NCBI GenBank assembly: GCA_030272155.1
Contig: CP126191.1
Span: 10,907,001 to 10,971,000 of the forward strand
DNA length: 64,000 nt
From: Tetradesmus obliquus
Lineage: Eukaryota > Chlorophyta > Chlorophyceae > Sphaeropleales > Scenedesmaceae
Direction of reading: 5' to 3'
This document shows, piece after piece, positions 1 to 53,281 of the stretch (positions are counted from its first letter, which is position 1; each line of letters starts with the position of its first letter). The position numbers and the translations under genes are program-made. The notes below the pieces were generated by a model, which was given only the letters and a program-made list of their open reading frames with translations, searched no databases and had not been told where the DNA came from.

Positions 1-3000
1 CATACTGCACTAGCTGGTGTCTTCTGTGCCTGTCAAATAGATAGATCAAAAATAAAGGCATATAGCATGCTCCTGACATCGTCAGCTAAATGGCTGAAGC
101 GCTGCGACGCCCCTGGTGGGCCGGGGAAAACCCCGGTGATCGACTAACTGTACATCACCCCTAGTGGGATTCGGCTGGAGAACAGCTCCAATGATACTGA
201 ACTTGTTGCGGGCGTCTGTGCATTTCAAACAGAAAAACCAAAGTAACAGGCATATATCATGCTCCAGACATCGTCAGCAGAGTAGTCTAAGCACAGTGAC
301 GCGCCCGGTGGGCTGGGGAAAACTCCGGTGATCAAAAACTTCCATAGTGCGATTTGGCAGGCATACAGCTCTAATGATACTGCACTAGCTGGTGTCTTCT
401 GTGCCTGTCAAATAGATAAATCAAAAATAAAGGCATATAGCATGCTCCTGACATCGTCAGCTAAATGGCTGAAGCGCTGCGACGCCCCTGGTGGGCCGGG
501 GAAAACTCCGGTGATCGACTAACTGTACATAACCCCTAGTGGGATTCGGCTGGAGAACAGCTCCAATGATACTGAACTTGCTGCGGGCGTCTGTGCATTT
601 CAAACAGAAAAACCAAAGTAACAGGCATATATCATGCTCCAGACATCGTCAGCTGGGTAGTCTTAGCACAGTGACGCGCCCGGTGGGCCGGGGAAAACTC
701 CGGTGATCGAAAAACCCTAGTGCGATTCGGCGGGCGTACAGCTCCAATGATACTGCAGTCGCTGTGGGCTTCTGTGCATTTCAAATAGATAAATCAAAAT
801 TACAGGCATATAGCATGCTCATAACATCGTCAGCTAGTTGGTTGAAGCGCTGCAACACACCTGGTGGGCAGGAGAAAACTCCGGTGATCGAAAACCTGCA
901 TAGTGCGATTTGGCAGGCATACAGCTCAAATCATACTGCACTAGCTGGTGTCTTCTGTGCCTGTCAAATAGATAGATCAAAAATAAAGGCATATAGCATG
1001 CTCCTGACATCGTCAGCTAAATGGCTGAAGCGCTGCGACGCCCCTGGTGGGCCGGGGAAAACCCCGGTGATCGACTAACTGTACATCACCCCTAGTGGGA
1101 TTCGGCTGGAGAACAGCTCCAATGATACTGAACTTGTTGCGGGCGTCTGTGCATTTCAAACAGAAAAACCAAAGTAACAGGCATATATCATGCTCCAGAC
1201 ATCGTCAGCAGAGTAGTCTAAGCACAGTGACGCGCCCGGTGGGCTGGGGAAAACTCCGGTGATCAAAAACTTCCATAGTGCGATTTGGCAGGCATACAGC
1301 TCTAATGATACTGCACTAGCTGGTGTCTTCTGTGCCTGTCAAATAGATAAATCAAAAATAAAGGCATATAGCATGCTCCTGACATCGTCAGCTAAATGGC
1401 TGAAGCGCTGCGACGCCCCTGGTGGGCCGGGGAAAACTCCGGTGATCGACTAACTGTACATAACCCCTAGTGGGATTCGGCTGGAGAACAGCTCCAATGA
1501 TACTGAACTTGCTGCGGGCGTCTGTGCATTTCAAACAGAAAAACCAAAGTAACAGGCATATATCATGCTCCAGACATCGTCAGCTGGGTAGTCTTAGCAC
1601 AGTGACGCGCCCGGTGGGCCGGGGAAAACTCCGGTGATCGAAAAACCCTAGTGCGATTCGGCGGGCGTACAGCTCCAATGATACTGCAGTCGCTGTGGGC
1701 TTCTGTGCATTTCAAATAGATAAATCAAAATTACAGGCATATAGCATGCTCATAACATCGTCAGCTAGTTGGTTGAAGCGCTGCAACACACCTGGTGGGC
1801 AGGGGAAAACTCCGGTGATTGAAAACCTGCATAGTGCGATTTGGCAGGCATACAGCTCAAATCATACTGCACTAGAAGGTGTCTTCTGTGCCTGTCAAAT
1901 AGATAAATCAAAATTACAGGCATATAGCATGCTCCTGACATCGTCAGCTAAATGGCTGAAGCGCTGCGACGCCCCTGGTGGGCCGGGGAAAACCCCGGTG
2001 ATCGACTAACTGTACATCACCCCTAGTGGGATTCGGCGGGAGAACAGCTCCAATGATACTGAACTTGCTGCGGGCGTCTGTGCATTTCAAACAGAAAAAC
2101 CAAGGTAACAGGCATATATCATGCTCCAGACATCGTCAGCTGGGTAGTCTAAGCACAGTGACGCGCCCAGTGGGCCGGGGAAAACTCCGCTGATTGAAAA
2201 ACCCTAGTGCAATTCGGCGGGCGTACAGCTCCAATGATACTGCAGTCGCTGTGGGCTTCTGTGCATTTCAAATAGATAAATCAAAATTACAGGCATATAG
2301 CATGCTTATGACATCGTCAGCTAGGTGGTTGAAGCGCTGCAACACAACTGGTGGGCAGGGGAAAACTCCTGTGATCGAAAACCTGCATAGTGCGATTTGG
2401 CAGGCATACAGCTCAAATCATACTGCACTAGCTGGTGTCTTCTGTGCCTGTCAAATAGATAGATCAAAAATAAAGGCATATAGCATGCTCCTGACATCGT
2501 CAGCTAAATGGCTGAAGCGCTGCGACGCCCCTGGTGGGCCGGGGAAAACCCCGGTGATCGACTAACTGTACATCACCCCTAGTGGGATTCGGCTGGAGAA
2601 CAGCTCCAATGATACTGAACTTGTTGCGGGCGTCTGTGCATTTCAAACAGAAAAACCAAAGTAACAGGCATATATCATGCTCCAGACATCGTCAGCAGAG
2701 TAGTCTAAGCACAGTGACGCGCCCGGTGGGCTGGGGAAAACTCCGGTGATCAAAAACTTCCATAGTGCGATTTGGCAGGCATACAGCTCTAATGATACTG
2801 CACTAGCTGGTGTCTTCTGTGCCTGTCAAATGGATAAATCAAAAATAAAGGCATATAGCATGCTCCTGACATCGTCAGCTAAATGGCTGAAGCGCTGCGA
2901 CGCCCCTGGTGGGCCGGGGAAAACTCCGGTGATCGACTAACTGTACATAACCCCTAGTGGGATTCGGCTGGAGAACAGCTCCAATGATACTGAACTTGCT

Positions 3001-6000
3001 GCGGGCGTCTGTGCATTTCAAACAGAAAAACCAAAGTAACAGGCATATATCATGCTCCAGACATCGTCAGCTGGGTAGTCTTAGCACAGTGACGCGCCCG
3101 GTGGGCCGGGGAAAACTCCGGTGATCGAAAAACCCTAGTGCGATTCGGCGGGCGTACAGCTCCAATGATACTGCAGTCGCTGTGGGCTTCTGTGCATTTC
3201 AAATAGATAAATCAAAATTACAGGCATATAGCATGCTCATAACATCGTCAGCTAGTTGGTTGAAGCGCTGCAACACACCTGGTGGGCAGGAGAAAACTCC
3301 GGTGATCGAAAACCTGCATAGTGCGATTTGGCAGGCATACAGCTCAAATCATACTGCACTAGCTGGTGTCTTCTGAGCCTGTCAAATAGATAGATCAAAA
3401 ATAAAGGCATATAGCATGCTCCTGACATCGTCAGCTAAATGGCTGAAGCGCTGCGACGCCCCTGGTGGGCCGGGGAAAACCCCGGTGATCGACTAACTGT
3501 ACATAACGCCTAGTGGGATTCGGCGGGAGAACAGCTCCAATGATACTGAACTTGCTGCGGGCGTCTGTGCATTTCAAACAGAAAAACCAAGGTAACAGGC
3601 ATATATCATGCTCCAGACATCGTCAGCTGGGTAGTCTAAGCACAGTGACGCGCCCAGTGGGCCGGGGAAAACTCCGGTGATCGAAAAACCCTAGTGCGAT
3701 TTGGCGGGCGTACAGCTCCAATGATACTGCAGTCGCTGTGGGCTTCTGTGCATTTCAAATAGATAAATCAAAATTACAGGCATATAGCATGCTTATGACA
3801 TCGTCAGCTAGGTGGTTGAAGCGCTGCAACACACCTGGTGGGCAGGGGAAAACTCCGGTGATTGAAAACCTGCATAGTGCGATTTGGCAGGCATACAGCT
3901 CAAATCATACTGCACTAGCTGGTGTCTTCTGTGCCTGTCAAATAGATAGATCAAAAATAAAGGCATATAGCATGCTCCTGACATCGTCAGCTAAATGGCT
4001 GAAGCGCTGCGACGCCCCTGGTGGGCCGGGGAAAACCCCGGTGATCGACTAACTGTACATAACCCCTAGTGGGATTCGGCGGGAGAACAACTCCAATGAT
4101 ACTGAACTTGCTGCGGGCGTCTGTGCATTTCAAACAGAAAAACCAAAGAAACAGCCATATATCATGCTCCAGACATCGTCAGCAGAGTAGTCTAAGCACA
4201 GTGACGCGCCCGGTGGGCTGGGGAAAACTCCATTGATCAAAAACTTCCATAGTGCGATTTGGCAGGCATACAGCTCTAATGATACTGCACTAGCTGGTGT
4301 CTTCTGTGCCTGTCAAATAGATAAATCAAACATACAGTCATATAGCATGCTCCTGACATCGTCAGCTAAATGGCTGAAGCGCTGCGACGCCCCTGGTGGC
4401 CCTGGGAAAACCCCGGTGATCGACTAACTGTACATAACCCCCAGTGGGATTCGGCTGGAGAACAGCTCCAATGATACTGAACTTGCTGCGGGCGTCTGTG
4501 CATTTCAAACAGAAAAACCAAAGTAACAGGCATATATCATGCTCCAGACATCGTCAGCTGGGTAGTCTAAGCACAGTGACGCGCCCGGTGGGCCGGGGAA
4601 GACTCCGGTGATCGAAAAAACCTAGTGCGATTCGGCGGGCGTACAGCTCCAATGACCCTGCAGTCGCTGTGGGCTTCTGTGCATTTCAAATAGATAAATC
4701 AAAATTACAGGCATATAGCATGCTCATGACATCGTCAGCCAGGTGGTTGAAGCGCTGCAACACACCTGGTGGGCAGGAGAAAACTCCAGTGATCGAAAAC
4801 CTGCACAGTGCGATTTGGCAGGCATACAGCTCAAATGATACTGCACTAGCTGGTGTCTTCTGTGCCTGTCAAATAGATAGATCAAAAATAAAGGCATATA
4901 GCATGCTCCTGACATCGTCAGTTTCATGGCTGAAGCGCTGCGACGCCCCTGGTGGGCCGGGGAAAACCCCGGTGATCGACTAACTGTACATCACCCCTAG
5001 TGGGATTCGGCGGGAGAACAGCTCCAATGATACTGAACTTGCTGCGGGCGTCTGTGCATTTGAAACAGAAAAACCAAAGTAACAGGCATATATCATGCTC
5101 CAGACATCGTCAGCAGAGTAGTCTAAGCACAGTGACGCGCCCGGTGGGCTGGGGAAAACTCCGGTGATCAAAAACTTCCATAGTGCGATTTGGCAGGCAT
5201 ACAGCTCTAATGATACTGCACTAGCTGGTGTCTTCTGTGCCTGTCAAATAGATAAATCAAAAATACAGTCATATAGCATGCTCCTGACATCGTCAGCTAA
5301 ATGGCTGAAGCGCTGCGACGCCCCTGGTGGCCCGGGGAAAACTCCGGTGATTGACTAGCTGTACATCACCCCTAGTGGGATTCGGCGGGAGAACAGCTCC
5401 AATGATACTGAACTTGCTGCGGGCGTCTGTGCATTTCAAACAGAAAAACCAAAGTAACAGGCATATATCATGCTCCAGACATCGTCAGCTGGGTTGTCTA
5501 AGCACAGTAACGCAGCCGGTGGGCCGGGGAAAACTCCGGTGATCGAAAAACCCTAGTGCGATTCGGCGGGCGTACAGCTCCAATGATACTGCAGTCGCTG
5601 TGGGCTTCTGTGCATTTCAAATAGATAAATCAAAATTACAGGCATATAGCATGCTCATGACATCGTCAGCTAGGTTGTTGAAGCGCTGCAACACAACTGG
5701 TGGGCAGGGGAAAACTCCTGTGATCGAAAACCTGCATAGTGCGATTTGGCAGGCATACAGCTCAAATCATACTGCACTAGCTGGTGTCTTCTGTGCCTGT
5801 CAAATAGATAGATCAAAAATAAAGGCATATAGCATGCTCCTGACATCGTCAGCTAAATGGCTGAAGCGCTGCGACGCCCCTGGTGGGCCGGGGAAAACCC
5901 CGGTGATCGACTAACTGTACATAACCCCTAGCGGGATTCGGCGGGAGAACAACTCCAATGATACTGAACTTGCTGCGGGCGTCTGTGCATTTCAAACAGA

Positions 6001-9000
6001 AAAACCAAAGAAACAGCCATATATCATGCTCCAGACATCGTCAGCAGAGTAGTCTAAGCACAGTGACGCGCCCGGTGGGCTGGGGAAAACTCCAGTGATC
6101 AAAAACTTCCATAGTGCGATTTGGCAGGCATACAGCTCTAATGATACTGCACTAGCTGGTGTCTTCTGTGCCTGTCAAATAGATAAATCAAAAATACAGT
6201 CATATAGCATGCTCCTGACATCGTCAGCTAAATGGCTGAAGCGCTGCGACGCCCCTGGTGGGCCGGGGAAAACCCCGGTGATCGACTAACTGTACATAAC
6301 CCCTAGTGGGATTCGGCTGGAGAACAACTCCAATGATACTGAACTTGCTGCGGGCGTCTGTGCATTTCAAACAGAAAAACCAAGGTAACAGGCATATATC
6401 ATGCTCCAGACATCGTCAGCTGGGTAGTCTAAGCACAGTGACGCGCCCAGTGGGCCGGGGAAAACTCCGCTGATTGAAAAACCCTAGTGCGATTCGGCGG
6501 GCGTACAGCTCCAATGATACTGCAGTCGCTGTGGGCTTCTGTGCATTTCAAATAGATAAATCAATATTACAGGCATATAGCATGCTCATGACATCGTCAG
6601 CTAGGTTGTTGAAGCGCTGCAACACAACTGGTGGGCAGGGGAAAACTCCTGTGATCGAAAACCTGCATAGTGCGATTTGGCAGGCATACAGCTCAAATCA
6701 TACTGCACTAGCTGGTGTCTTCTGTGCCTGTCAAATAGATAGATCAAAAATAAAGGCATATAGCATGCTCCTGACATCGTCAGCTAAATGGCTGAAGCGC
6801 TGCGACGCCCCTGGTGGGCCGGGGAAAACCCCGGTGATCGACTAACTGTACATAACCCCTAGTGGGATTCGGCGGGAGAACAACTCCAATGATACTGAAC
6901 TTGCTGCGGGCGTCTGTGCATTTGTAACAGAAAAACCAAAGTAACGGGCATATATCATGCTACAGACATCGTCAGCAGAGTAGTCTAAGCACAGTGACGC
7001 GCCCAGTGGGCTGGGGAAAACTCCAGTGATCAAAAACTTCCATAGTGCGATTTGGCAGGCATACAGCTCTAATGATACTGCACTAGCTGGTGTTTTCTGT
7101 GCCTGTCAAATAGATAGATCACAAATAAAGGCATATAGCATGCTCCTGACATCGTCAGCTAAATGGCTGAAGCGCTGCGACGCCCCTGGTGGCCCTGGGA
7201 AAACCCCGGTGATCGACTAACTGTACATCACCCCTAGTGGGATTCGGCTGGAGAACAGCTCCAATGATACTGAACTTGCTGCGGGCGTCTGTGCATTTCA
7301 AACAGAAAAACCAAAGTAACAGGCATATATCATGCTCCAGACATCGTCAGCTGGGTAGTCTAAGCACAGTGACGCGCCCGGTGGGCCGGGGAAAACTCCG
7401 GTGATCGGAAAACCCTAGTGCGATTCGGCGGGCGTACAGCTCCAATGATCCTGCAGTCGCTGTGGGCTTCTGTGCATTTCAAATAGATAAATCAAAATTA
7501 CAGGCATATAGCATGCTTATGACATCGTCAGCTAGGTGGTTGTAGCGCTGCAACACACCTGGTGGGCAGGGGAAAACTCCAGTGATCAAAAATTTCCATA
7601 GTGCGATTTGGCAGGCATACAGCTCAAATCATACTGCACTAGCTGGTGTTTTCTGTGCCTGTCAAATAGATAAATCAAAATTACAGGCATATAGCATGCT
7701 CCTGACATCGTCAGCTAAATGGCTGAAGCGCTGCGACGCCCCTGGTGGCCCTGGGAAAACCCCGGTGATCGACTAACTGTACATCACCCCTAGTGGGATT
7801 CGGCTGGAGAACAGCTCCAATGATACTGAACTTGCTGCGGGCGTCTGTGCATTTCAAACAGAAAAACCAAAGTATCAGGCATATATCATGCTCCAGACAT
7901 CGTCAGCTGGGTAGTCTAAGCACAGTGACGCGCCCGGTGGGCCGGGGAAAACTCCGGTGATCGAAAAACCCTAGTGCGATTCGGCGGGCGTACAGCTCCA
8001 ATGATCCTGCAGTCGCTGTGGGCTTCTGTGCCTGTCAAATAGATAAATTAAAATTACAGGCATATAGCATGCTCATGACATCGTCAGCTAGGTTGTTGAA
8101 GCGCTGCAACACAACTGGTGGGCAGGGGAAAACTCCTGTGATCGAAAACCTGCATAGTGCGATTTGGCAGGCATACAGCTCAAATCATACTGCACTAGCT
8201 GGTGTCTTCTGTGCCTGTCAAATAGATAGATCACAAATAAAGGCATATAGCATGCTCCTGACATCGTCAGCTAAATGGCTGAAGCGCTGCGACGCCCCTG
8301 GTGGGCCGGGGAAAACCCCGGTGATCGACTAACTGTACATAACCCCTAGTGGGATTCGGCTGGAGAACAACTCCTATGATACTGAACTTGCTGCGGGCGT
8401 CTGTGCATTTCAAACAGAAAAACCAAAGTAACAGGCATATATCATGCTCCAGACATCGTCAGCTGGGTAGTCTAAGCACAGTGACGCGCCCGGTGGGCCG
8501 GGGAAAACTCCGGTGATCGAAAAACCCTAGTGCGATTCGGCGGGCGTACAGCTCCAATGATCCTGCAGTCGCTGTGGGCTTCTGTGCCTGTCAAATAGAT
8601 AAATTAAAATTACAGGCATATAGCATGCTCATGACATCGTCAGCTAGGTTGTTGAAGCGCTGCAACACAACTGGTGGGCAGGGGAAAACTCCTGTGATCG
8701 AAAACCTGCATAGTGCGATTTGGCAGGCATACAGCTCAAATCATACTGCACTAGCTGGTGTCTTCTGTGCCTGTCAAATAGATAGATCACAAATAAAGGC
8801 ATATAGCATGCTCCTGACATCGTCAGCTAAATGGCTGAAGCGCTGCGACGCCCCTGGTGGGCCGGGGAAAACCCCGGTGATCGACTAACTGTACATAACC
8901 CCTAGTGGGATTCGGCTGGAGAACAACTCCTATGATACTGAACTTGCTGCGGGCGTCTGTGCATTTCAAACAGAAAAACCAAGGTAACAGGCATATATCA

Positions 9001-12000
9001 TGCTCCAGACATCGTCAGCTGGGTAGTCTAAGCACAGTGAAGCGCCCGGTGGGCTGGGGAAAACTCCGGTGATCGAAAAACCCTAGTGCGATTCGGCGGG
9101 CGTACAGCTCCAATGATCCTGCAGTCGCTGTGGGCTTCTGTGCCTGTCAAATAGATAAATTAAAATTACAGGCATATAGCATGCTCATGACATCGTCAGC
9201 TAGGTTGTTGAAGCGCTGCAACACAACTGGTGGGCAGGGGAAAACTCCTGTGATCGAAAACCTGCATAGTGCGATTTGGCAGGCATACAGCTCAAATCAT
9301 ACTGCACTAGCTGGTGTCTTCTGTGCCTGTCAAATAGATAAATCAAAATTACAGGCATATAGCATGCTCCTGACATCGTCAGCTAAATGGCTGAAGCGCT
9401 GCGACGCCCCTGGTGGGCCGGGGAAAACCCCGGTGATCGACTAACTGTACATAACCCCTAGTGGGATTCGGCTGGAGAACAACTCCTATGATACTGAACT
9501 TGCTGCGGGCGTCTGTGCATTTCAAACAGAAAAACCAAAGTAACAGGCATATATCATGCTCCAGACATCGTCAGCTGGGTAGTCTAAGCACAGTGACGCG
9601 CCCGGTGGGCCGGGGAAGACTCCGGTGATCGAAAAACCCTAGTGCGATTCGGCGGGCGTACAACTCCAATGATCCTGCAGTCGCTGTGGGCTTCTGTGCA
9701 TTTCAAATAGATAAATCAAAATTACAGGCATATAGCATGCTCATGACATCGTCAGCTAGGTTGTTGAAGCGCTGCAACACAATTGGTGGGCAGGGGAAAA
9801 CTCCTGTGATCGAAAACCTGCATAGTGCGATTTGGCAGGCATACAGCTCAAATCATACTGCACTAGCTGGTGTTCTGCGCCTGTCAAATAGATAGATCAC
9901 AAATAAATGCATATAGCATGCTCCTGACATCGTCAGCTAAATGGCTGAAGCGCTGCGACGCCCCTGGTGGGCCGGGGAAAACCCCGGTGATCGATTAACT
10001 GTACATAACCCCTAGTGGGATTCGGCGGGAGAACAACTCCAATGATACTGAACTTGCTGCGGGCGTCTGTGCATTTCAAACAGAAAAACCAAGGTAACAG
10101 GCATATATCATGCTCCAGACATCGTCAGCTGGGTAGTCTAAGCACAGTGACGCGCCCAGTGGGCCGGGGAAAACTCCGGTGATCGAAAAACCCTAGTGCG
10201 ATTTGGCGGGCGTACAACTCCAATGATCCTGCAGTCGCTGTGGGCTTCTGTGCATTTCAAATAGATAAATCAAAATTACAGGCATATAGCATGCTTATGA
10301 CATCGTCAGCTAGGTGGTTGAAGCGCTGCAACACACCTGGTGGGCAGGGGAAAACTCATGTGATCGAAAACCTGCATAGTGCGATTTGGCAGGCATACAG
10401 CTCAAATCATACTGCACTAGCTGGTGTCTTCTGTGCCTGTCAAATAGATAGATCAAAAATAAAGGCATATAGCATGCTCCTGACATCGTCAGCTAAATGG
10501 CTGAAGCGCTGCGACGCCCCTGGTGGGCCGGGGAAAACCCCGGTGATCGACTAACTGTACATATCCCCTAGTGGGATTCGGCTGGAGAACAACACCAATG
10601 ATACTGAACTTGCTGCGGGCGTCTGTGCATTTGTAACAGAAAAACCAAAGTAACGGGCATATATCATGCTACAGACATCGTCAGCAGAGTAGTCTAAGCA
10701 CAGTGACGCGCCCAGTGGGCTGGGGAAAACTCCAGTGATCAAAAACTTCCATAGTGCGATTTGGCAGGCATACAGCTCTAATGATACTGCACTAGCTGGT
10801 GTTTTCTGTGCCTGTCAAATAGATAAATCAAAATTACAGGCATATAGCATGCTCCTGACATCGTCAGCTAAATGGCTGAAGCGCTGCGACGCCCCTGGTG
10901 GCCCTGGGAAAACCCCGGTGATCGACTAACTGTACATCACCCCTAGTGGGATTCGGCTGGAGAACAGCTCCAATGATACTGAACTTGCTGCGGGCGTCTG
11001 TGCATTTCAAACAGAAAAACCAAAGTAACAGGCATATATCATGCTCCAGACATCGTCAGCTGGGTAGTCTAAGCACAGTGACGCGCCCGGTGGGCCGGGG
11101 AAAACTCCGGTGATCGGAAAACCCTAGTGCGATTCGGCGGGCGTACAGCTCCAATGATCCTGCAGTCGCTGTGGGCTTCTGTGCATTTCAAATAGATAAA
11201 TCAAAATTACAGGCATATAGCATGCTTATGACATCGTCAGCTAGGTGGTTGTAGCGCTGCAACACACCTGGTGGGCAGGGGAAAACTCCGGTGATCGAAA
11301 ACCTGCATAGTGCGATTTGGCAGGCATACAGCTCAAATCATACTGCACTAGAAGGTGTCTTCTGTGCCTGTCAAATAGATAAATCAAAATTACAGGCATA
11401 TAGCATGCTCCTGACATCGTCAGCTAAATGGCTGAAGCGCTGCGACGCCCCTGGTGGGCCGGGGAAAACCCCGGTGATCGACTAACTGTACATCACCCCT
11501 AGTGGGATTCGGCGGGAGAACAGCTCCAATGATACTGAACTTGCTGCGGGCGTCTGTGCATTTGTAACAGAAAAACCAAAGTAACAGGCATATATCATGC
11601 TCCAGACATCGTCAGCAGAGTAGTCTAAGCACAGTGAAGCGCCCGGTGGGCTTGGGAAAACTCCGGTGATCGAAAAACCCTAGTGCGATTCGGCGGGCGT
11701 ACAGCTCCAATGATCCTGCAGTCGCTGTGGGCTTCTGTGCCTGTCAAATAGATAAATTAAAATTACAGGCATATAGCATGCTCATGACATCGTCAGCTAG
11801 GTTGTTGAAGCGCTGCAACACAACTGGTGGGCAGGGGAAAACTCCTGTGATCGAAAACCTGCATAGTGCGATTTGGCAGGCATACAGCTCAAATCATACT
11901 GCACTAGCTGGTGTCTTCTGTGCCTGTCAAATAGATAGATCACAAATAAAGGCATATAGCATGCTCCTGACATCGTCAGCTAAATGGCTGAAGCGCTGCG

Positions 12001-13535: not shown

Positions 13536-13551
13536 CACTATGGTCAAGGCC

Positions 13552-13705
13552 CATCCACATCTCATCCACAAATCGTCCACATCAGGTCATACACAGTGCC
13601 ATCCACAGCGGACTACGGCCATCCACAGGCCATCCACATCCGTCTGGGTCCACACGGCGTGTGGATGAACTTCGAGCACTTGTGGATGAAGTTGTGGATA
13701 GGGCC
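13552..13705. repeat. Left subterminal repeat region of the CACTA element
   Basis: Within about 150 bp there are seven TCCACA motifs, mostly as CATCCACA, followed by three inverted copies (TGTGGAT). In plant CACTA elements, clustered short subterminal motifs are binding sites for the element-encoded DNA-binding protein (TNPA-like). Here that role is inferred from position and density. Confidence 0.8.
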
Positions 13706-14368
13706 AAATGAGCCTCGAATCACTGATAAAACATGTTAAACATTGATATATAACAATAATCGGTTATTTCCCGTCGCGCTGGTGCCGGGTACGCGAGCAC
13801 AGCGTGCAGCAGCAGAAGCAGCAGCAGGTAACAAAGCTTGCAAGGCCAAGTCACTGCTGCTCGTGCTGCAACTTCAACACCAGGCCACAGGTACAGAAAC
13901 ACAGACAAGACTGCCGCAAAGTGTGCTATGTCCCTGCAATGCAACACCATGCTGTGACGTGCCACATGCAACCTGAACCATTGTATTCTGTCTGATCAGA
14001 CAGAGTGTCATGACACTGCTCAGTAGCATGTTGCTTGCCACTCCAGCATCCCTTCTTGCTGTGTCAGGCCTTAAGCTGCTGCTAAACCGTGCATTTGATG
14101 AAATGCAAGCTCCACGACGCCTGCTTGCTGCGGCTACACATAGCTTGCAACTCGGCAACCTGCATATCAGCCTGCACTGCATTGGGCAAGTCAGCAGCAG
14201 TCGCAGTAGCAGCAGCAGCAACAACAAAGGCAGCAAAGTGTTTCAGAAGTCTGTGTTAGACGTGCAACTGCTACAGCAGCGCTGCTGCTGCCAAAACCAC
14301 ATGCAGGAACCGTATAACTTCGTCCATTTACATGCAAAGTGCGGCGCTGCTTCTTGAAGGAGTGGCCA

Positions 14369-14369
<1 letters not shown>

Positions 14370-14402
<33 letters not shown>
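14370..14402. repeat. (CTG)11 microsatellite inside the CACTA element
   Basis: Eleven uninterrupted CTG triplets. The surrounding transposon interior is generally rich in CTG/CAG, like the host genes on the right of the window, so it may have been acquired from host sequence or expanded in place. Confidence 0.9.
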
Positions 14403-14406
<4 letters not shown>

Positions 14407-21524: not shown

Positions 21525-24500
21525 AAACTTCCATAGTGCGATTTGGCAGGCATACAGCTCTAATGATACTGCACTAGCTGGTGTCTTCTGTGCCTATCAA
21601 ATAGATAAATCAAAATTACAGGCATATAGCATGCTCCTGACATCGTCAGTTTAATGGCTGAAGCGCTGCGACGCCCCTGGTGGCCCGGGGAAAACTCCGG
21701 TGATTGACTAGCTGTACATCACCCCTAGTGGGATTCGGCGGGAGAACAGCTCCAATGATACTGAACTTGCTGCGGGCGTCTGTGCATTTCAAACAGAAAA
21801 AACCAAAGTAACAGGCATATATCATGCTCCAGACATCGTCAGCTGGGTTGTCTAAGCACAGTAACGCGGCCGGTGGGCCGGGGAAAACTCCGGTGATCGA
21901 AAAACCCTAGTGCGATTCGGCGGGCGTACAGCTCCAATGATACTGCAGTCGCTGTGGGCTTCTGTGCATTTCAAATAGATAAATCAACATTACAGGCATA
22001 TAGCATGCTCATGACATCGTCAGCTAGGTGGTTGAAGCGCTGCAACACACCTGGTGGGCAGGGGAAAACTCCGGTGATCGAAAACCTGCATAGTGCGATT
22101 TGGCAGGCATACAACTCAAATAATACTGCACTAGCTGGTGTCTTCTGTGCATTTAAAATAGATAAATCAAAATTACAGGCATATAGCATGCTCTTGACAT
22201 CGTCAGTTTAATGGCTGAAGAGCTGCGACGCCCCTGGTGGCCCGGGGAAAACTCCGGTGATTGACTAACTGTACATAACCCCTAGTGGGATTCGGCGGGA
22301 GAACAGCTCCAATGATACTGAACTTGCTGCGGGCGTCTGTGCATTTGAAACAGAAAAACCAAAGTAACAGGCATATATCATGCTCCAGACATCGTCAGCA
22401 GAGTAGTCTAAGCACAGTGACGCGCCCGGTGGGCTGGGGAAAACTCCGGTGATCAAAAACCTCCATAGTGCGATTTGGCAGGCATACAGCTCTAATGATA
22501 CTGCACTAGCTGGTGTCTTCTGTGCCTGTCAAATAGATGAATCAAAATTACAGGCATATAGCATGCTCCTGACATCGTCAGCTAAATGGCTGAAGCGCTG
22601 CGACGCCCCTGGTGGCCCGGGGAAAACCCCGGTGATTGACTAGCTGTACATCACCCCTAGTGGGATTCGGCGGGAGAACAGCTCCAATGATACTGAACTT
22701 GCTGCAGGCGTCTGTGCATTTGAAACAGAAAAACCAAAGTAACAAGCATATATCATGCTCCAGACATCGTCAGCAGAGTAGTCTAAGCACAGTGACGCGC
22801 CCGGTGGGCTGGGGAAAACTCCGGTGATCAAAAACTTCCATAGTGCGATTTGGCAGGCATACAGGTCTAATGAACTGCACTAGCTGGTGTCTTCTGTGCC
22901 TGTCAAATAGATAAATCAAAATTACAGGCATATAGCATGCCATCGTCAGCTAAATGGCTGAAGCGCTGCGACGCCCCTGGTGGGCCTGGGAAAACCCCGG
23001 TGATCGACTAACTGTACATAACCCCTAGTGGGATTTGGCTGGAGAACAACTCCAATGATACTGAACTTGCTGCAGGCGTCTGTGCATTTGAAACAGAAAA
23101 ACCAAAGTAACAGGCATATATCATGCTCCAGACATCGTCAGCAGAGTAGTCTAAGCACAGTGACGCGCCCGGTGGGCTGGGGAAAACTCCGGTGATCAAA
23201 AACTTCCATAGTGCGATTTGGCAGGCATACAGCTCTAATGAACTGCACTAGCTGGTGTCTTCTGTGCCTGTCAAATAGATAAATCAAAATTACAGGCATA
23301 TAGCATGCCATCGTCAGCTAAATGGCTGAAGCGCTGCGACGCCCCTGGTGGGCCTGGGAAAACCCCGGTGATCGACTAACTGTACATAACCCCTAGTGGG
23401 ATTTGGCTGGAGAACAACTCCAATGATACTGAACTTGCTGCGGGCGTCTGTGCAATTCAAACAGAAAAACCAAAGAAACAGGCATATATCATGCTCCAGA
23501 CATCGTCAGCTGGGTAGTCTAAGCACAGTGACGCGCCCGGTGGGCCGGGGAAAACTCCGGTGATCGAAAAACCCTAGTGCGATTCAGCGGGCGTACAGCT
23601 CCAATGATACTGCAGTCGCTGTGGGCTTCTGTGCATTTCAAATAGATAAATCAAAATTACAGGCATTAGCATGCTCATGACATCGTCAGCCAGGTGGTTG
23701 AAGCGCTGCAACACACCTGGTGGGCAGGAGAAAACTCCGGTGATCGAAAACCTGCACAGTGCGATTTGGCAGGCATACAGCTCAAATGATACTGCACTAG
23801 CTGGTGTCTTCTGTGCCTGTCAAATAGATAAATCAAAAATAAAGGCATATAGCATGCTCCTGACATCGTCAGTTTCATGGCTGAAGCGCTGCGACGCCCC
23901 TGGTGGGACGGGGAAAACCCCGGTGATCGACTAACTGTACATCACCCCTAGTGGGATTCGGCGGGAGAACAGCTCCAATGATACTGAACTTGCTGCGGGC
24001 GTCTGTGCATTTGAAACAGAAAAACCAAAGTAACAGGCATATATCATGCTCCAGACATCGTCAGCAGAGTAGTCTAAGCACAGTGACGCGCCCGGTGGGC
24101 TGGGGAAAACTCCGGTGATCAAAAACTTCCATAGTGCGATTTGGCAGGCATACAGCTCTAATGATACTGCACTAGCTGGTGTCTTCTGTGCCTATCAAAT
24201 AGATAAATCAAAATTACAGGCATATAGCATGCTCCTGACATCGTCAGTTTAATGGCTGAAGCGCTGCGACGCCCCTGGTGGCCCGGGGAAAACTCCGGTG
24301 ATTGACTAGCTGTACATCACCCCTAGTGGGATTCGGCGGGAGAACAGCTCCAATGATACTGAACTTGCTGCGGGCGTCTGTGCATTTCAAACAGAAAAAC
24401 CAAAGTAACAGGCATATATCATGCTCCAGACATCGTCAGCTGGGTTGTCTAAGCACAGTAACGCGCCCGGTGGGCCGGGGAAAACTCCGGTGATCGAAAA

Positions 24501-27500
24501 ACCCTAGTGCGATTCGGCGGGCGTACAGCTCCAATGATACTGCAGTCGCTGTGGGCTTCTGTGCATTTCAAATAGATAAATCAAAACAACAGGCATATAG
24601 CATGCTCATGACATCGTCAGCTAGGTGGTTGAAGCGCTGCAACACACCTGGTGGGCAGGGGAAAACTCTGGTGATCGAAAACCTGCATAGTGCGATTTGG
24701 CAGGCATACAACTCAAATGATACTGCACTAGCTGGTGTCTTCTGTGCATTTTAAATAGATAAATCAAAATTAAAGGCATATAGCATGCTCTTGACATCGT
24801 CAGTTTAATGGCTGAAGAGCTGCGACGCCCCTGGTGGCCCGGGGAAAACTCCGGTGATTGACTAACTGTACATAACCCCTAGTGGGATTCGGCGGGAGAA
24901 CAGCTCCAATGATACTGAACTTGCTGCGGGCGTCTGTGCATTTGAAACAGAAAAACCAAAGTAACAGGCATATATCATGCTCCAGACATCGTCAGCAGAG
25001 TAGTCTAAGCACAGTGACGCGCCCGGTGGGCTGGGGAAAACTCCGGTGATCAAAAACCTCCATAGTGCGATTTGGCAGGCATACAGCTCTAATGATACTG
25101 CACTAGCTGGTGTCTTCTGTGCCTGTCAAATGGATAAATCAAAGTTACAGGCATATAGCATGCTCCTGACATCGTCAGCTAAATGGCTGAAGCGCTGCGA
25201 CGCCCCTGGTGGCCCTGGGAAAACCCCGGTGATTGACTAGCTGTACATCACCCCTAGTGGGATTCGGCGGGAGAACAGCTCCAATGATACTGAACTTGCG
25301 GTGGGCGTCTGTGCATTTAAAACAGAAAACCCAAAGAAACAGGCATATATCATGCTCCAGACATCGTCAGCAGAGTAGCCTAAGCACAGTGACGCGCCCG
25401 GTGGGCTGGGGAAAACTCCGGTGATCGGAAAACCCTAGTGCGATTCGGCGGGCGTACAGCTCCAATGATACTGCAGTCGCTGTGGGCTTCTGTGCATTTC
25501 AAATAGATAAATCAAAATTACAGGCATATAGCATGCTCATGACATCGTCAGCTAGTTGGTTGAAGCGCTGCAACACACCTGGTGGGCAGGAGAAAACTCC
25601 GGTGATCGAAAACCTGCATAGTGCGATTTGGCAGGCATACAGCTCAAATCATACTGCACTAGCTGGTGTCTTCTGTGCCCGTCCAATAGATAGATCAAAA
25701 ATAAAGGCATATAGCATGCTCCTGACATCGTCAGCTAAATGGCTGAAGCGCTGCGACGCCCCTGGTGGGCCGGGGAAAACCCCGGTGATCGACTAACTGT
25801 ACATAACCCCTAGTGGGATTCGGCTGGAGAACAACTCCAATGATACTGAACTTGCTGTGGGCGTCTGTGCAATTCAAACAGAAAAACCAAAGTAACAGGC
25901 ATATATCATGCTCCAGACATCGTCAGCTGGGTAGTCTAAGCACAGTGACGCGCCCGGTGGGCCGGGGAAAACTCCGGTGATTGAAAAACCCTAGTGCGAT
26001 TCGGCGGGCGTACAGCTCCAATGATACTGCAGTCGCTGTGGGCTTCTGTGCATTTCAAATATATAAATCAAAACAACAGGCATATAGCATGCTCATGACA
26101 TCGTCAGCCAGGTGGTTGAAGCGCTGCAACACACCTGGTGGGCAGGGGAAAACTCCGGTGATCGAAAACCTGCATAGTGCGATTTGGCAGGCATACAGCT
26201 CAAATGATACTGCGCTAGCTGTTGTCTTCTGTGCCTGTCAAATAGATAAATCAAAAATACAGGCATATAGCATGCTCCTAACATCGTCAGCTAAATGGCT
26301 GAAGCGCTGCGACGCCCCTGGTGGGCCTGGGAAAACCCCGGTGATCGACTAACTGTACATAACCCCTAGTGGGATTCGGCGGGAGAACAGCTCCAATGAT
26401 ACTGAACTTGCTGCGGGCGTCTGTGCACTTCAAACAGAAAAACCAAAGAAACAGGCATATATCATGCTCCAGACATCGTCAGCTGGGTAGTCTAAGCACA
26501 GTGACGCGCCCGGTGGGCTGGGGAAAACTCTGGTGATCAAAAACTTCCATAGTGCGATTTGGCAGGCATACAGCTCTAATGAACTGCACTAGCTGGTGTC
26601 TTCTGTGCCTGTCAAATAGATAAATCAAAATTACAGGCATATAGCATGCTCCTGACATCGTCAGCTAAATGGCTGAAGCGCTGCGACGCCCCTGGTGGGC
26701 CTGGGAAAACCCCGGTGATCGACTAACTGTACATAACCCCTAGTGGGATTCGGCGGGAGAACAGCTCCAATGATACTGAACTTGCTGCGGGCGTCTGTGC
26801 ATTTGAAACAGAAAAACCAAAGTAACAGGCATATATCATGCTCCAGACATCGTCAGCTGGGTAGTCTAAGCACAGTGACGCGCCCGGTGGGCCGGGGAAA
26901 ACTCCGGTGATCGAAAAACCCTAGTGCGATTCAGCGGGCGTACAGCTCCAATGATACTGCAGTCGCTGTGGGCTTCTGTGCTTTTCAAATAGATAAATCA
27001 AAATTACAGGCATATAGCATGCTTATGACATCGTCAGCGAGGTGGTTGAAGCGCTGCAACACACCTGGTGGGCAGGGGAAAACTCCGGTGATCGAAAACC
27101 TGCATAGTGCGATTTGGCAGGCATACAGCTCAAATGATACTGCACTAGCTGGTGTCTTCTGTGCCTGTCAAATAGATAGATCAAAAATAAAGGCATATAG
27201 CATGCTCCTGACATCGTCAGCTAAATGGCTGAAGCGCTGCGACGCCCCTGGTGGGCCGGGGAAAACCCCGGTGATCGACTAACTGTACATAACCCCTAGT
27301 GGGATTCGGCTGGAGAACAACTCCAATGATACTGAACTTGCTGCGGGCGTCTGTGCAGTTCAAACGGAAAAACCAAAGAAACAGGCATATATCATGCTCC
27401 AGACATCGTCAGCTGGGTAGTCTAAGCACAGTGACGCGCCCGGTGGGCGGGGAAAACTCCGGTGATTGAAAAACCCTAGTGCGATTCGGCAGGCGTACAG

Positions 27501-30500
27501 CTCCAATGATACTGCAGTCGCTGTGGGCTTCTGTGCATTTCAAATATATAAATCAAAACAACAGGCATATAGCATGCTCATGACATCGTCAGCCAGGTGG
27601 TTGAAGCGCTGCAACACACCTGGTGGGCAGGGGAAAACTCCGGTGATGGAAAACCTGCATAGTGCGATTTGGCAGGCATACAGCTCAAATGATACTGCGC
27701 TAGCTGGTGTCTTCTGTGCCTGTCAAATAGATAAATCAAAAATACAGGCATATAGCATGCTCCTAACATCGTCAGCTAAATGGCTGAAGCGCTGCGACGC
27801 CCCTGGTGGGCCTGGGAAAACACGGTGATCGACTAACTGTACATAACCCCTAGTGGGATTCGGCGGGAGAACAGCTCCAATGATACTGAACTTGCTGCGG
27901 GCGTCTGTGCACTTCAAACAGAAAAACCAAAGAAACAGGCATATATCATGCTCCAGACATCGTCAGCTGGGTAGTCTAAGCACAGTGACGCGCCCGGTGG
28001 GCTGGGGAAAACTCTGGTGATCAAAAACTTCCATAGTGCGATTTGGCAGGCATACAGCTCTAATGAACTGCACTAGCTGGTGTCTTCTGTGCCTGTCAAA
28101 TAGATAAATCAAAATTACAGGCATATAGCATGCTCCTGACATCGTCAGCTAAATGGCTGAAGCGCTGCGACGCCCCTGGTGGGCCTGGGAAAACCCCGGT
28201 GATCGACTAACTGTACATAACCCCAAGTGGGATTCGACGGGAGAACAGCTCCAATGATACTAAACTTGCTGCGGGCGTCTGTGCATTTGAAACAGAAAAA
28301 CCAAAGTAACAGGCATATATCATGCTCCAGACATCGTCAGCTGGGTAGTCTAAGCACAGTGACGCGCCCGGTGGGCCGGGGAAAACTCCGGTGATCGGAA
28401 AACCCTAGTGCGATTCGGCGGGCGTACAGCTCCAATGATACTGCAGTCGCTGTGGGCTTCTGTGCATTTCAAATAGATAAATCAAAATTACAGGCATATA
28501 GCATGCTCATGACATCGTCAGCTAGTTGGTTGAAGCGCTGCAACACACCTGGTGGGCAGGAGAAAACTCCGGTGATCGAAAACCTGCATAGTGCGATTTG
28601 GCAGGCATACAGCTCAAATCATACTGCACTAGCTGGTGTCTTCTGTGCCTGTCAAATAGATAGATCAAAAATAAAGGCATATAGCATGCTCCTGACACCG
28701 TCAGCTAAATGGCTGAAGCGCTGCGACGCCCCTGGTGGGCCGGGGAAAACCCCGGTGATCGACTAACTGTACATAACCCCTAGTGGGATTCGGCTGGAGA
28801 ACAACTCCAATGATACTGAACTTGCTGCGGGCGTCTGTGCAGTTCAAACGGAAAAACCAAAGAAACAGGCATATATCATGCTCCAGACATCGTCAGCTGG
28901 GTAGTCTAAGCACAGTGACGCGCCCGGTGGGCGGGGAAAACTCCGGTGATTGAAAAACCCTAGTGCGATTCGGCGGGCGTACAGCTCCAATGATACTGCA
29001 GTCGCTGTGGGCTTCTGTGCATTCCAAATATATAAATTAAAACAACAGGCATATAGCATGCTCATGACATCGTCAGCCAGGTGGTTGAAGCGCTGCAACA
29101 CACCTGGTGGGCAGGGGAAAACTCCGGTGATCGAAAACCTGCATAGTGCGATTTGGCAGGCATACAGCTCAAATGATACTGCGCTAGCTGTTGTCTTCTG
29201 TGCCTGTCAAATAGATAAATCAAAAATACAGGCATATAGCATGCTCCCAACATCGTCAGCTAAATGGCTGAAGCGCTGCGACGCCCCTGGTGGGCCTGGG
29301 AAAACCCCGGTGATCGACTAACTGTACATAACCCCTAGTGGGATTCGGCGGGAGAACAGCTCCAATGATACTGAACTTGCTGCGGGCGTCTGTGCACTTC
29401 AAACAGAAAAACCAAAGAAACAGGCATATATCATGCTCCAGACATCGTCAGCTGGGTAGTCTAAGCACAGTGACGCGCCCGGTGGGCTGGGGAAAACTCC
29501 GGTGATCAAAACTTCCATAGTGCGATTTGGCAGGCATACAGCTCTAATGAACTGCACTAGCTGGTGTTTTCTGTGCCTGTCAAATAGATAAATCAAAATT
29601 ACAGGCATATAGCATGCTCCTGACATCGTCAGCTAAATGGCTGAAGCGCTGCGACGCCCCTGGTGGGCCTGAGAAAACCCCGGTGATCGACTAACTGTAC
29701 ATAACCCCTAGTGGGATTCGGCGGGAGAACAGCTCCAATGATACTAAACTTGCTGCGGGCGTCTGTGCATTTCAAACAGAAGAACCAAAGAACAGGCATA
29801 TATCATGCTCCAGACATCGTCAGCTGGGTAGTCTAAGCACAGTGACGCGCCCGGTGGGCCGGGGAAAACTCCGGTGATCAAAAACTTCCATAGTGCGATT
29901 TGGCAGGCATACAGCTCTAATGAACTGCACTAGCTGGTGTTTTCTGTGCCTGTCAAATAGATAAATCAAAATTACAGGCATATAGCATGCTCCTGACATC
30001 GTCAGCTAAATGGCTGAAGCGCTGCGACGCCCCTGGTGGGCCTGGGAAAACCCCGGTGATCGACTAACTGTACATAACCCCTAGTGGGATTCGGCTGGAG
30101 AACAACTCCAATGATACTGAACTTGCTGCGGGCGTCTGTGCATTTGAAACAGAAAAACCAAAGTAACAGGCATATATCATGCTCCAGACATCGTCAGCTG
30201 GGTAGTTTAAGCACAGTGACGCGCCCGGTGGGCCGGGGAAAACTCCGGTGATTGAAAAACCCTAGTGCGATTCGGCGGGCGTACAGCTCCAATGATACTG
30301 CAGTCGCTGTGGGCTTCTGTGCATCTCAAATAGATAAATCCAAATTACAGGCATATAGCATGCTCCAGACATCGTCAGCTGGGTAGTCTAAGCACAGTGA
30401 CGCGCCCGGTGGGCTGGGGAAAACTCCGGTGATCAAAACTTCCATAGTGCGATGGCAGGCATACAGCTCAAATGATACTGCACTAGCTGGTGTCTTCTGT

Positions 30501-32899
30501 GCCTGTCAAATAGATAAATAAACAAAACAGGCATATAGCATGCTCATGACATCGTCAGCTAAATGGCTGAAGCGCTGCGACGCCCCTGGTGGGCCTGAGA
30601 AAACCCCGGTGATCGACTAACTGTACATAACCCCTAGTGGGATTCGGCGGGAGAACAGCTCCAATGATACTAAACTTGCTGCGGGCGTCTGTGCATTTCA
30701 AACAGAAGAACCAAAGTAACAGGCATATATCATGCTCCAGACATCGTCAGCTGGGTAGTCTAAGCACAGTGACGCGCCCGGTGGGCCGGGGAAAACTCCG
30801 GTGATCGAAAAACCCTAGTGCGATTCGGCGGGCGTACAGCTCCAATGATACTGCAGTCGCTGTGGGCTTCTGTGCATTTCAAATAGATAAATCCAAATTA
30901 CAGGCATATAGCATGCTCATGACATCGTCAGCTAGGTGGTTAAAGCGCTGCAACACACCTGGTGGGCAGGGGAAAACTCCGGTGATCGAAAACCTGCATA
31001 GTGCGATTTGGCAGGCATACAACTCAAATGATACTGCACTAGCTGGTGTCTTCTGTGCATTTTAAATAGATAAATCAAAATTACAGGCATATAGCATGCT
31101 CCTGACATCGTCAGTTTAATGGCTGAAGCGCTGCGACGCCCCTGGTGGCCCGGGGAAAACTCCGGTGATTGACTAACTGTACATCACCCCTAGTGGGATT
31201 CGGCGGGAGAACAGCTCCAATGATACTGAACTTGCTGCGGGCGTCTGTGCATTTGAAACAGAAAAACCAAAGTAACAGGCATATATCGTGCTCCAGACAT
31301 CGTCAGCAGAGTAGTCTAAGCACAGTGACGCGCCCGGTGGGCTGGGGAAAACTCCGGTGATCAAAAACTTCCACAGTGCGATTTGGCAGGCATACAGCTC
31401 TAATGAACTGCACTAGCTGGTGTCTTCTGTGCCTGTCAAATAGATAAATCAAAATTACAGGCATATAGCATGCTCCTGACATCGTCAGCTAAATGGCTGA
31501 AGCGTTGCGACGCCCCTGGTGGGCCTGGGAAAACCCCGGTGATCGACTAACTGTACATAACCCCTAGTGGGATTCGGCTGGAGAACAGCTCCAATGATAC
31601 TGAACTTGCTGCGGGCGTCTGTGCATTTCAAACAGAAAAAACCAAAGAAACAGCCATATATCATGCTCCAGACATCGTCAGCAGAGTAGTCTAAGCACAG
31701 TGACGCGCCCGGTGGGCTGGGGAAAACTCCAGTGATCAAAAACTTCCATAGTGCGATTTGGCAGGCATACAGCTCTAATGATACTGCACTAGCTGGTGTC
31801 TTCTGTGCCTGTCAAATAGATAAATCAAAAATACAGGCATATAGCATGCTCCTGACATCGTCAGCTAAATGGCTGAAGCGCTGCGACGCCCCTGGTGGGC
31901 CTGGGAAAACCCCGGTGATCGACTAACTGTACATAACCCCTAGTGGGATTCGGCTGGAGAACAACTCCAATGATACTGAACTTGCTGCGGGCGTCTGTGC
32001 ATTTCAAACAAAAAAAACCAAAGTAACAGGCATATATCATGCTCCAGACATCGTCAGCTGGGTAGTCTAAGCACAGTGACGCGCCCGGTGGGCCGGGGAA
32101 AACTCCGGTGATCGGAAAACCCTAGTGCGATTCGGCGGGCGTACAGCTCCAATGATACTGCAGTCGCTGTGGGCTTCTGTGCATTTCAAATAGATAAATC
32201 AAAACAACAGGCATATAGCATGCTCATGACATCGTCAGCTAGGTGGTTGAAGCGCTGCAACACACCTGGTGGGCAGGGGAAAACTCCGGTGATCGAAAAC
32301 CTGCATAGTGCGATTTGGCAGGCATACAGCTCTAATGATACTGCACGAGCTGGTGTCTTCTGTGCCTGTCATATAGATAAATCAAAATTACAGGCATATA
32401 GCATGCTCCTGACATCGTCAGCGAAATGGCTGAAGCCCTGCGACGCCCCTGGTGGGCCGGGGAAAACTCCGGTGATCGACTAACTGTACATAACCCCTAG
32501 TGGGATTCGGCTGGAGAACAACTCCAATGATACTGAACTTGCTGCGGGCGTCTGTGCATTTCAAACAGAAAAACCAAAGAAACAGGCATATATCATGCTC
32601 CAGACATCGTCAGCTGGGTAGTCTAAGCACAGTGACGCGCCCGGTGGCCGGGGAAAACTGCGGTGATTGAAAAACCCTAGTGCGATTCGGCGGGCGTACA
32701 GCTCCAATGAAACTGCAGTCGCTGTGGGCTTCTGTGCATTTCAAATAGATAAATCAAAATTACAGGCATATAGCATGCTTATGACATCGTCAGCTAGGTT
32801 GTTGAAGCGCTGCAACACACCTGGTGGGCAGGGGAAAACTCCGGTGATCGAAAACCTGCATAGTGCGATTTGGCAGGCATACAACTCAAATGATACTGC

Positions 32900-35423
32900 A
32901 CTAGCTGGTGTCTTCTGTGCATTAATAATTAATTAATCAAAATAACAGGCATATAGCATGCTCCTGACATCGTTATTTTAATGGCTGAAGCGCTGCGACG
33001 TCCCAGGTGGCCCGGGGAAAACTCCGGTGATTGACCAACTGTACATCACCCCTAGTGGGATTCGGCGGGAGAACTCTCCAATGATACTGAACTTGCTGCG
33101 GGCGTCTGTGCATTTCAAACAGAAAAACCAAGGTAACAGGCATATATCATGCTCCAAACATCGTCATCAGAGTGGTCTAAGCACAGTGACGCGCCCGGTG
33201 GGCCGGGGAAAACTCCGATGATCAAAAACCTCCATAGTGCGATTTGGCAGGCATACAGCTCACATGATACTGCACTAGCTGGTGTCTTTTGTGCCTGTCA
33301 AATGGATAAATCAAAATTAAAGGCATATAGCATGCTCATGACATCGTCAGCTGGATGGTTGATGCGATGCGACGCCCCTGGTGGGCAGGGGAAAACCCCG
33401 GTGATCGACTAACTGTACATAACCCCTAGTGGGATTCGGCGGGAGAACAGCTCCAATGATACTGAACTTGCTGCGGGCGTCTGTGCATTTCAAATAGATA
33501 AATCAAAACAGCAGGCATATAGCATGCTCATGACATCGTCAGCTAGGTGGTTGAAGCGCTGCAACACATTTGGTGGGCAGGGGAAAACTCCGGTGATCGA
33601 AAACCTGCATAGTGCGATTTGGCAGGCATACAACTCTAATGATACTGCACTAGCTGGTGACCTCTGTGCATCTCAAATAGAAAAATGACAATCACAGGCA
33701 TATAGCATGCTCCTGACATTGTCAGCTAGATGGTTGAAGCGCTGCGACGCCCCTGGTGGGCCGGGGAAAACCCCGGTGATCGACTAACTGTACATAACCC
33801 CTAGTGGGATTCGGCAGGAGAACAGCTCCAATGATACTGAACTTGCTGCGGGCGTCTGTGCATTTTCAACGGAACACCAAAGTAACAGGCATATATCATG
33901 CTCCAGACATCGTCAGCTGGGTAGTCTAAGCACAGTGACGCGCCCGGTGGGCCGGGGAAAACTCCGGTGATGGAAAAACCCTAGTGCAATTCGGCGGGCG
34001 TACAGCTCCAATGATACTGCAGTTGCAGTTGTCTTCTGTGCATTTCAAATAGATAAATCAAAATTACAGGCATATAGCATGCTCATGACATCGTCAGCTA
34101 GGTGGTTGAAGCGCTGCAACACACGTGGTGGGCAAGGGAAAACTCCGGTGATCAAAAACCTGCATAGTGCGATTTGGCAGGCATACAGCTCTAATGATAC
34201 TGCACTAGCTGGTGTCTTCTGTGCATTTCAAATAGATAAATCAAAATTACAGGCATATAGCATGCTCCTGACATCGTGAGCTAAATGGCTGAAGCGCTGC
34301 CACGCACTTGGTGGGCCGGGGAAAACCCTGGTGATCGACTAACTGTACGTAACCACTAGTGGGATTCGCCGGAAGAACACCTCCAATGATACCGAACTAT
34401 CTGCGGGCTTCTGTGTATTTTAAACAGAAAAACCAGAGAAACAGGCATGTATCATGCTCCAGACATCGTCAGCTGCGTAGTCTAAGCACAGTGACGCGCC
34501 CTGTGGGCCGAGCAAAACTCCGCTGATCTAAAAACCCTAGTGCGATTCGGCGGGCGTACAGCTCCAACGATACTGCAGTCGCTGTGGGCTTCTGTGCATT
34601 TCAAATAGATAAATCAAAACAATAGGCATATAGCATGCTCATGACATCGTCAGCTAGGTGGTTGAAGCGCTGCAACACACCTGGTGGGCAGGGGAAAACT
34701 CCGGTGATCGAAAACCTCCATAGTGCGATTCGGCGGGCGTACAGCTCCAATGATACTGCAGTCGCTGTGGGCTTCTGTGCATTTCAAATAGATAAATCAA
34801 AACAACAGGCATATAGCATGCTCATGACATCGTCAGTTAGATGGTTGAAGCGCATGCGACGCACCTGGTGGGCCGGGGAAAACCCCGGTGATCAATACTC
34901 CCCTAATGGGATTCGGCGGGCGTACAGCTCCAATGATACTGAACTTGCTGCGGGTTTATGTGCGTTTCAAACAGAGAAACCAAAGTAACAGGCATATATC
35001 ATGCTCCAAGCATCCTCGGCTGGGTAGTCTAAGCACAGTGACGCGCCAGGTGGGCCGAGGAAAACTTCGCTGATCAAAAAACCCTAGTGCGATTCGGCGG
35101 GCGTACAGCTCCAATGATATTGCAGTCGCTGTGGGCTTCTGTGCATTTCTAATAGATAAATCAAAACAACAGGCATATAGCATGCTCATGACATCTTCAG
35201 CTAGGTGGTTGAAGCGCTGCAACACACCTGGTGGGCAGGGGAAAACTCTGGTGATTGAAAACCTCCATAGTGCGATTTGGCAGGCATACAGCTCTAATGA
35301 TACTGCACTAGCTGGTGTCTTCTGTGCATCTCAAATAAAAAATCACAGTCACAGGCATATGACCTGCTCCTGACATTGTCAGCTAGATGGTTGAAGCGCT
35401 GCGACGCACCTGGTGGGCCGGGG
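32900..35423 (+). repeat. Degraded right edge of satellite 1
   Basis: Monomers here carry many more private substitutions and indels than the core. Examples are an AT-rich TTAATAATTAATTAATC segment near 32923-32939, altered starts such as AACTGTACGTAACCACTAG, missing C monomers and fused B-B order near 34640-34900. Greater divergence at array margins is the usual result of homogenisation acting mainly in the interior, so this looks like a genuine array border and not an assembly cut. Confidence 0.75.

Positions 35424-53250: not shown

Positions 53251-53281
<31 letters not shown>

Follow-up and report, generated by a model that had tools for sequence, protein, structure and literature searches.

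Higher-order repeat structure of a satellite array from an apparent green alga and its possible role at a centromere

More than half of the 64-kb window (the whole stretch of DNA analysed here) is occupied by a tandem array, Satellite 1, which is a true higher-order-repeat (HOR) satellite, in that its multimers are more alike than its monomers and the order of the monomers goes beyond chance. The array comprises 174 full monomers and one fragment of 124 bp, arranged head to tail across 1..35423, which agrees with an earlier sequence-only reading of about 175 monomers in a single orientation. Its main parts are as follows.

1..13535, + strand: left segment of Satellite 1, made of A-B-C trimers and A-X dimers and open at the left window edge
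16527..35423, + strand: right segment of Satellite 1, in the same orientation as the left segment
377..932, + strand: example of a 556-bp trimer (A 377-568, B 569-749, C 750-932)
933..1307, + strand: example of a 375-bp dimer (A 933-1124, X 1125-1307), X being a hybrid of B (5') and C (3')

Tandem Repeats Finder (TRF) reported a period of 183 over 2..35423 and a period of 375 in 2..13528 and 16528..35423. We cut Satellite 1 into monomers at a conserved anchor and clustered the resulting 175 pieces, the first of which is 193 bp long (one extra base) and the last of which is the end fragment. Average-linkage clustering at 15-20% distance yielded groups of 65 (A), 65 (B-like), 44 (C) and 1 (the fragment), and the B-like group separates according to the right-hand neighbour of each monomer, 42 being B and 23 being X. 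Consensus lengths are 192 (A), 181 (B), 183 (C) and 183 bp (X), bearing out the proposed monomer of about 185 bp, near nucleosome repeat length. Mean identity within classes is 94.5% for A, 95.7% for B, 94.4% for C and 96.8% for X, whereas A, B and C share only 72-78% with one another (mean difference 22-28%). The identity matrix that the sequence-only reading had suggested as a check therefore contains the block structure it looked for (94-97% within classes vs 72-78% among A, B and C); the nearest neighbour of 172 of 173 monomers belongs to the same class, and identity is higher at a lag of three monomers (0.873) than at a lag of one (0.741).

Read as a string of classes, Satellite 1 resolves into 41 A-B-C trimers, 23 A-X dimers, five odd monomers and the end fragment. 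Exactly 556 bp is the length of 25 of the 41 trimers, one of the others holding a transposon, and 16 of the 23 dimers measure exactly 375 bp. The two-block grammar is obeyed by 169 of 172 adjacent monomer pairs; 5000 shuffled monomer orders averaged 59.6 such pairs and never exceeded 86. The two blocks of 375 and 556 bp proposed earlier (A-C' and A-B-C) thus hold for nearly the whole array but do not accommodate the five odd monomers, which start at 33267, 33459, 34753, 34936 and 35117, near the right margin. Likewise, the C' class is a distinct and recurring dimer partner (our X, n=23), but in the clustering it groups with B, and it is a hybrid of B and C. Separately, trimers and dimers alternate slightly more than random (37 runs vs 29.9, p 0.037), an observation on which we do not rely.

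The composition of X suggests how the dimer arose. At the 24 leftmost columns that differ between B and C, 22 of the 23 X copies carry the B letter throughout and one carries it at 23 columns; further right, the C letter is present in every one of the 23 copies at seven columns, one column is B-like in all copies and two columns match neither the B nor the C consensus (in 20/23 and 22/23 copies). Between alignment columns 115 and 148, where the sequence hardly differs from class to class, X passes from B to C, and a single breakpoint fits 31 of the 33 informative consensus columns, which was equalled in 1 of 20000 permutations. Because all copies share the B-to-C switch and this one-breakpoint fit, X looks like a B/C hybrid with one switch point that was made once, and the 375-bp A-X dimer appears to have arisen from the 556-bp A-B-C trimer by deletion. 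X copies are interspersed among trimers and X has the lowest diversity of any class (monomers 1-159: X 2.7%, n=22; B 3.3%, n=39; A 4.4%, n=60; C 4.5%, n=38), as expected if it is the youngest. The reverse order, with the dimer first and the trimer derived from A and X, is disfavoured: X resembles B at 136/139 left columns and C at 39/44 right columns, while B resembles A at only 34/53 right columns and C resembles A at 122/139 left columns.

Copies appear to have been mixed across the array, given that identity is almost flat with distance. From near to far among monomers 1-159 it goes from 0.955 to 0.954 for A and from 0.966 to 0.971 for B, with a slight fall for C (0.963 to 0.934). Later duplication is indicated by three successive identical trimers, starting at 16560, 17116 and 17672, and by identical dimer pairs at 933/2420 and 20266/21191; there are also eight diagonal runs of five or six monomers at ≥98.5% identity. 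At the right margin, the median divergence from the class consensus is 5.7% in the last 15 full monomers vs 2.2% in the 158 preceding them (Mann-Whitney p 3e-7), and the dimer/trimer order breaks from 33267 onward. A decayed margin was part of the sequence-only reading and is confirmed by these values; the homogeneous core that went with it needs qualifying, its copies being about 95% alike and not near-identical.

16560..18227, + strand: three letter-identical 556-bp trimers in succession, from a recent tandem duplication or an assembly effect
32530..35423, + strand: decayed right margin of Satellite 1, covering the final 15 full monomers plus the 124-bp end fragment
13536..16526, no strand assigned: CACTA-like DNA transposon of 2991 bp within a C monomer, with termini, subterminal repeats and target duplication

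The last of these features, which the sequence-only reading did not mention, interrupts Satellite 1. CACTA elements are defined by CACTA termini in inverted repeat, a 3-bp target duplication and subterminal repeats. The insert ends in CACTATGG and CCATAGTG, with an imperfect end-to-end terminal match (56/74 positions), carries ATCCACA-type subterminal repeats close to both ends and is flanked by a 3-bp duplication, ATA, at 13533-13535 and 16527-16529. It matches CACTA elements in structure without a match to an En/Spm-type transposase, and we refer to it as CACTA-like. No transposase was recognised in it and it is presumably non-autonomous, because its open frames of 90 codons or more (nine, taken unspliced) all stay below the Pfam cut-offs.

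To the right of Satellite 1, the window holds a second satellite, which the sequence-only reading did not mention, and then genes.

35424..35495, no strand assigned: 72-bp joint between Satellite 1 and Satellite 2
35496..44960, + strand: Satellite 2, about 26 copies of a 363-bp unit
47145..64000, no strand assigned: gene-bearing flank
between 59168 and 60881, + strand: thioredoxin/phosducin-like gene with at least three exons

Satellite 2, which sits between Satellite 1 and the genes, has a mean identity of 94.5% among the 25 full units compared, with subfamilies intermixed in its right part. We found no likeness between the two satellites, and Satellite 1 is not matched among the 20 best BLAST rows. 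The unit is not an internal dimer (best self-shift 31%), nor is a gene favoured, variable columns being spread over codon positions 1, 2 and 3 without bias (22, 31 and 25). A 660-codon open frame in Satellite 2 passes the DUF5725 cut-off (45.9 bits vs 26.7), but single units fall below it (E 0.13 and 0.035) and the match is a sum of weak repeats. The flank holds CAG/CTG-rich, intron-bearing genes with GT-AG introns, and AG and GT were present at the five exon borders inspected in the thioredoxin/phosducin-like gene. Such genes, and a GC content of 0.49-0.64 in the window (about 0.50 in Satellite 1 vs 0.54-0.64 in the flank beyond 46 kb), would fit a chlorophyte, for example a scenedesmacean.

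The reading that we favour, as likely as not on the sequence features, places Satellite 1 at a centromere or directly beside one, as an HOR satellite maintained by unequal exchange. Under this proposal, one crossover between B and C, misaligned one monomer out of register, would have removed a monomer length, and the resulting A-X dimer would have spread through the array by unequal exchange. The array would persist as a carrier of centromeric or pericentromeric chromatin, with each roughly nucleosome-sized monomer holding one nucleosome, and exchange would homogenise the core while leaving the edge to decay. Points in favour are the HOR grammar, the purity of the classes, the edge decay, the consensus lengths of 181-192 bp, the lower GC content and the nested transposon, together with the switch shared by 23/23 X copies, its one-breakpoint fit and the low diversity of X. 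The size of Satellite 1 also falls within the range of average centromere sizes (23-200 kb) given for four green algae in PMC11005252.

Counting against a centromere are the missing CENP-B box, the marginal phasing and the lack of a conserved box or of any special methylation sign. A CENP-B box (core pattern) with up to one mismatch occurs in neither array and once in the whole window, where 4.96 would be expected. The 10-bp WW periodicity of the ABC trimer was reached by 0.047 of 300 shuffles (14/300, uncorrected), which is marginal, and the shares by class, again of 300 and uncorrected, were 0.67 (A), 0.17 (B), 0.13 (C) and 0.037 (X). In the consensuses of A, B and C, 136 of 181 columns are invariant; a conserved protein-binding box in the tracts around GGCATATANCATGCTC and GGGGAAAACTCCGGTGATC was rejected, clustering being no better than chance (p 0.54, 0.53 and 0.68). 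A hairpin or dyad is not general to the monomers either (folding z vs shuffles: A -2.4, B -1.5, C +0.6, X +0.3). CpG is depleted throughout, to 0.72-0.73 in Satellite 1 and 0.49-0.62 in four gene segments, and within the array the rate of variation at CpG sites is about 1.7 times that at other sites; since depletion is weaker in Satellite 1 than in genes, it gives no sign of a special methylation mark. HOR structure is also present in non-centromeric satellites, and active human HOR arrays have copy identities above about 95%, so that copies only about 95% alike count as a further point against. Finally, the chlorophyte centromeres described in the sources we cite consist of clustered transposons, except for short AT-rich candidates in Auxenochlorella.

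In six green algae, two of them studied by CENH3 ChIP, centromeres are largely composed of L1, Copia and RTE-X elements together with unclassified ones (PMC11005252); ZeppL LINEs mark them in Chlamydomonas and Copia elements in Chromochloris (PMC8226300), and Chlamydomonas centromeres have been defined through ZeppL clusters (PMC10030371). In PMC12636532 the green algal centromeres identified to date are described as enriched in transposons, and short AT-rich centromeres are proposed for Auxenochlorella, while those of Chlorella MEM25 are marked by 'featured sequences' from a repeated-unit search (PMC12902096). With the Auxenochlorella candidates excepted, the earlier statement that known algal centromeres are rich in transposable elements is supported. 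Of 171 species with Sanger data, 76 have HORs according to PMC4053949, which groups green algae with those basal plants that have small genomes and few tandem repeats; PMC9498494 bears on telomeres only. No satellite or HOR centromere in a chlorophyte was found among the literature matches listed (titles and abstract starts), and repeats of this kind may have been described already with the telomere-to-telomere genome of Scenedesmus obliquus UTEX 3031.

Other origins of Satellite 1 have to be weighed against a centromere. The array could be a heterochromatic block without centromere role (a knob, mating-locus flank, supernumerary chromosome or single-chromosome expansion) shaped by unequal exchange alone. 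Unequal crossing over by itself can create HORs, and exchange accounts for the hybrid monomer, the identical blocks and the near-flat identity over distance; that known algal centromeres are mostly based on transposable elements, in the sources cited above, fits as well. However, the large array, nucleosome-sized monomer and edge decay suit a centromere at least equally, and we regard a plain heterochromatic block as somewhat unlikely. An alternative that we consider unlikely is that the window lies near a chromosome end, with repeats outward and genes inward, and that Satellite 1 is a subtelomeric satellite which acts as a buffer for the end and is kept homogeneous through exchange between ends. 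The layout has this form, with two stacked arrays on one side, genes on the other and a left end open at the window edge, and algal subtelomeres are known to hold satellites. Nonetheless, neither a TTTAGGG pair nor a TTTTAGGG pair is found on either strand of the 64 kb at up to one mismatch (the array's left end lies beyond the window), the sole match to any telomere motif tried lies in the gene flank (a TTAGGG pair at 49027), and the monomer is far shorter than that of the Sultan satellites of Chlamydomonas.

The irregular order of dimers and trimers might instead reflect misassembly of a simpler array, and the three identical trimers to the right of the transposon could be assembly stutter. 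Against this, X carries letters absent from the B and C consensus at two columns (20/23 and 22/23 copies), copies differ by about 5% and the transposon insertion is clean, with its target duplication; we consider an artefact highly improbable. A coding repeat was rejected (longest stop-free run 139 codons, in 1..13535), as was a satellite derived from a tRNA, 5S or rDNA-spacer sequence, no RNA family being matched: Rfam gave no match in the window at gathering score and none at E≤1 in 1-1500 and 35424-36700, and no tRNA was found in the window with bacterial settings. No LINE or Copia element was matched by Pfam among 21 selected open frames of the window. Exact-pattern scans for both satellites returned 0 stretches in viral contigs and 0 in prokaryotic genome contigs, and a scan of the viral contigs for the transposon end likewise returned 0; with viral and prokaryotic collections, these results say little.

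Returning to the centromeric proposal, a satellite centromere in a chlorophyte would be notable because the centromeres described in this group, in the sources cited, are mostly transposon-based. We advance only tentatively the further idea that Satellite 1 may represent the first satellite-based HOR centromere in a chlorophyte, an independent alpha-satellite-like architecture in a lineage thought to use transposon clusters, whose two-step history (ABC trimer, then AX dimer via the B/C hybrid) would still be readable. Should Satellite 1 prove to be a centromere, chlorophytes too would have evolved satellite HOR centromeres, which would open the change between transposon and satellite centromeres to study in small, culturable cells. 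If it is not, it is still a heterochromatin marker in an algal assembly. The mosaic of dimers and trimers, with one hybrid switch point in common, documents in compact form how a new HOR form spreads in an array.

Among known systems, the Sultan arrays of Chlamydomonas are subtelomeric and, like Satellite 1, are algal tandem satellites, although of a different unit length. Primate alpha-satellite has hybrid monomers and decayed edges, both also seen in Satellite 1, and shares with it near-nucleosomal monomers in diverged classes that are ordered into multi-monomer units. Satellite 1 differs in having no CENP-B box and unit copies about 95% alike, and the likeness is one of architecture, with no sequence relation claimed. 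The human alpha-satellite monomer measures 171 bp and the Arabidopsis centromere repeat 178 bp, and HOR dimers occur in Sorghum (PMC4053949). Plant centromere satellites resemble Satellite 1 in monomer length, tandem orientation and HOR structure, but the host of Satellite 1 is apparently a chlorophyte, a group whose mapped centromeres are mostly based on transposable elements (PMC11005252 and PMC8226300). The Zepp/ZeppL LINE and Copia centromere clusters of green algae are similar to Satellite 1 in size and possibly in chromosomal role, but they are clusters of transposons, whereas Satellite 1 is a satellite with one CACTA-like insertion.

Satellite 2, the tandem array of a 363-bp unit at 35496-44960, is stop-free in one frame in runs of up to 660 codons, with each unit corresponding to 121 codons. 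The 660-codon frame passed the Pfam cut-off for DUF5725, single units matched this family with E-values of only 0.035-0.13, and no codon-position bias was seen in the array, which could be mistakenly annotated as protein. This array and the sequence to its right contain the following features:

39893-44640, subfamily mixture in the right part of Satellite 2
46761-46861, palindromic hairpin with 45-nt arms and an 11-nt loop
47145-48788 (-), two open frames side by side, with a leucine-rich-repeat look
59168-60881 (+), thioredoxin/phosducin-like gene with GT-AG introns

Identity is about 89-93% between the Satellite 2 subfamilies and 95-100% within each, and this right part forms a second, looser mosaic. 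In Satellite 1, the array of ~185-bp monomers, the site entered by the CACTA-like transposon resembles the element's own terminus: the transposon end CCATAGTG is similar to the target GCATAGTGCG (13528-16535).

The two hairpin arms are perfectly complementary, the RNA fold z is -16.6 and TA stands at both start and end. The element may be a miRNA-type hairpin, or else a MITE that is small and palindromic. The paired frames look like they encode a leucine-rich-repeat protein and had no Pfam match at E<=0.1. The thioredoxin/phosducin-like gene presumably resembles TXNDC9.
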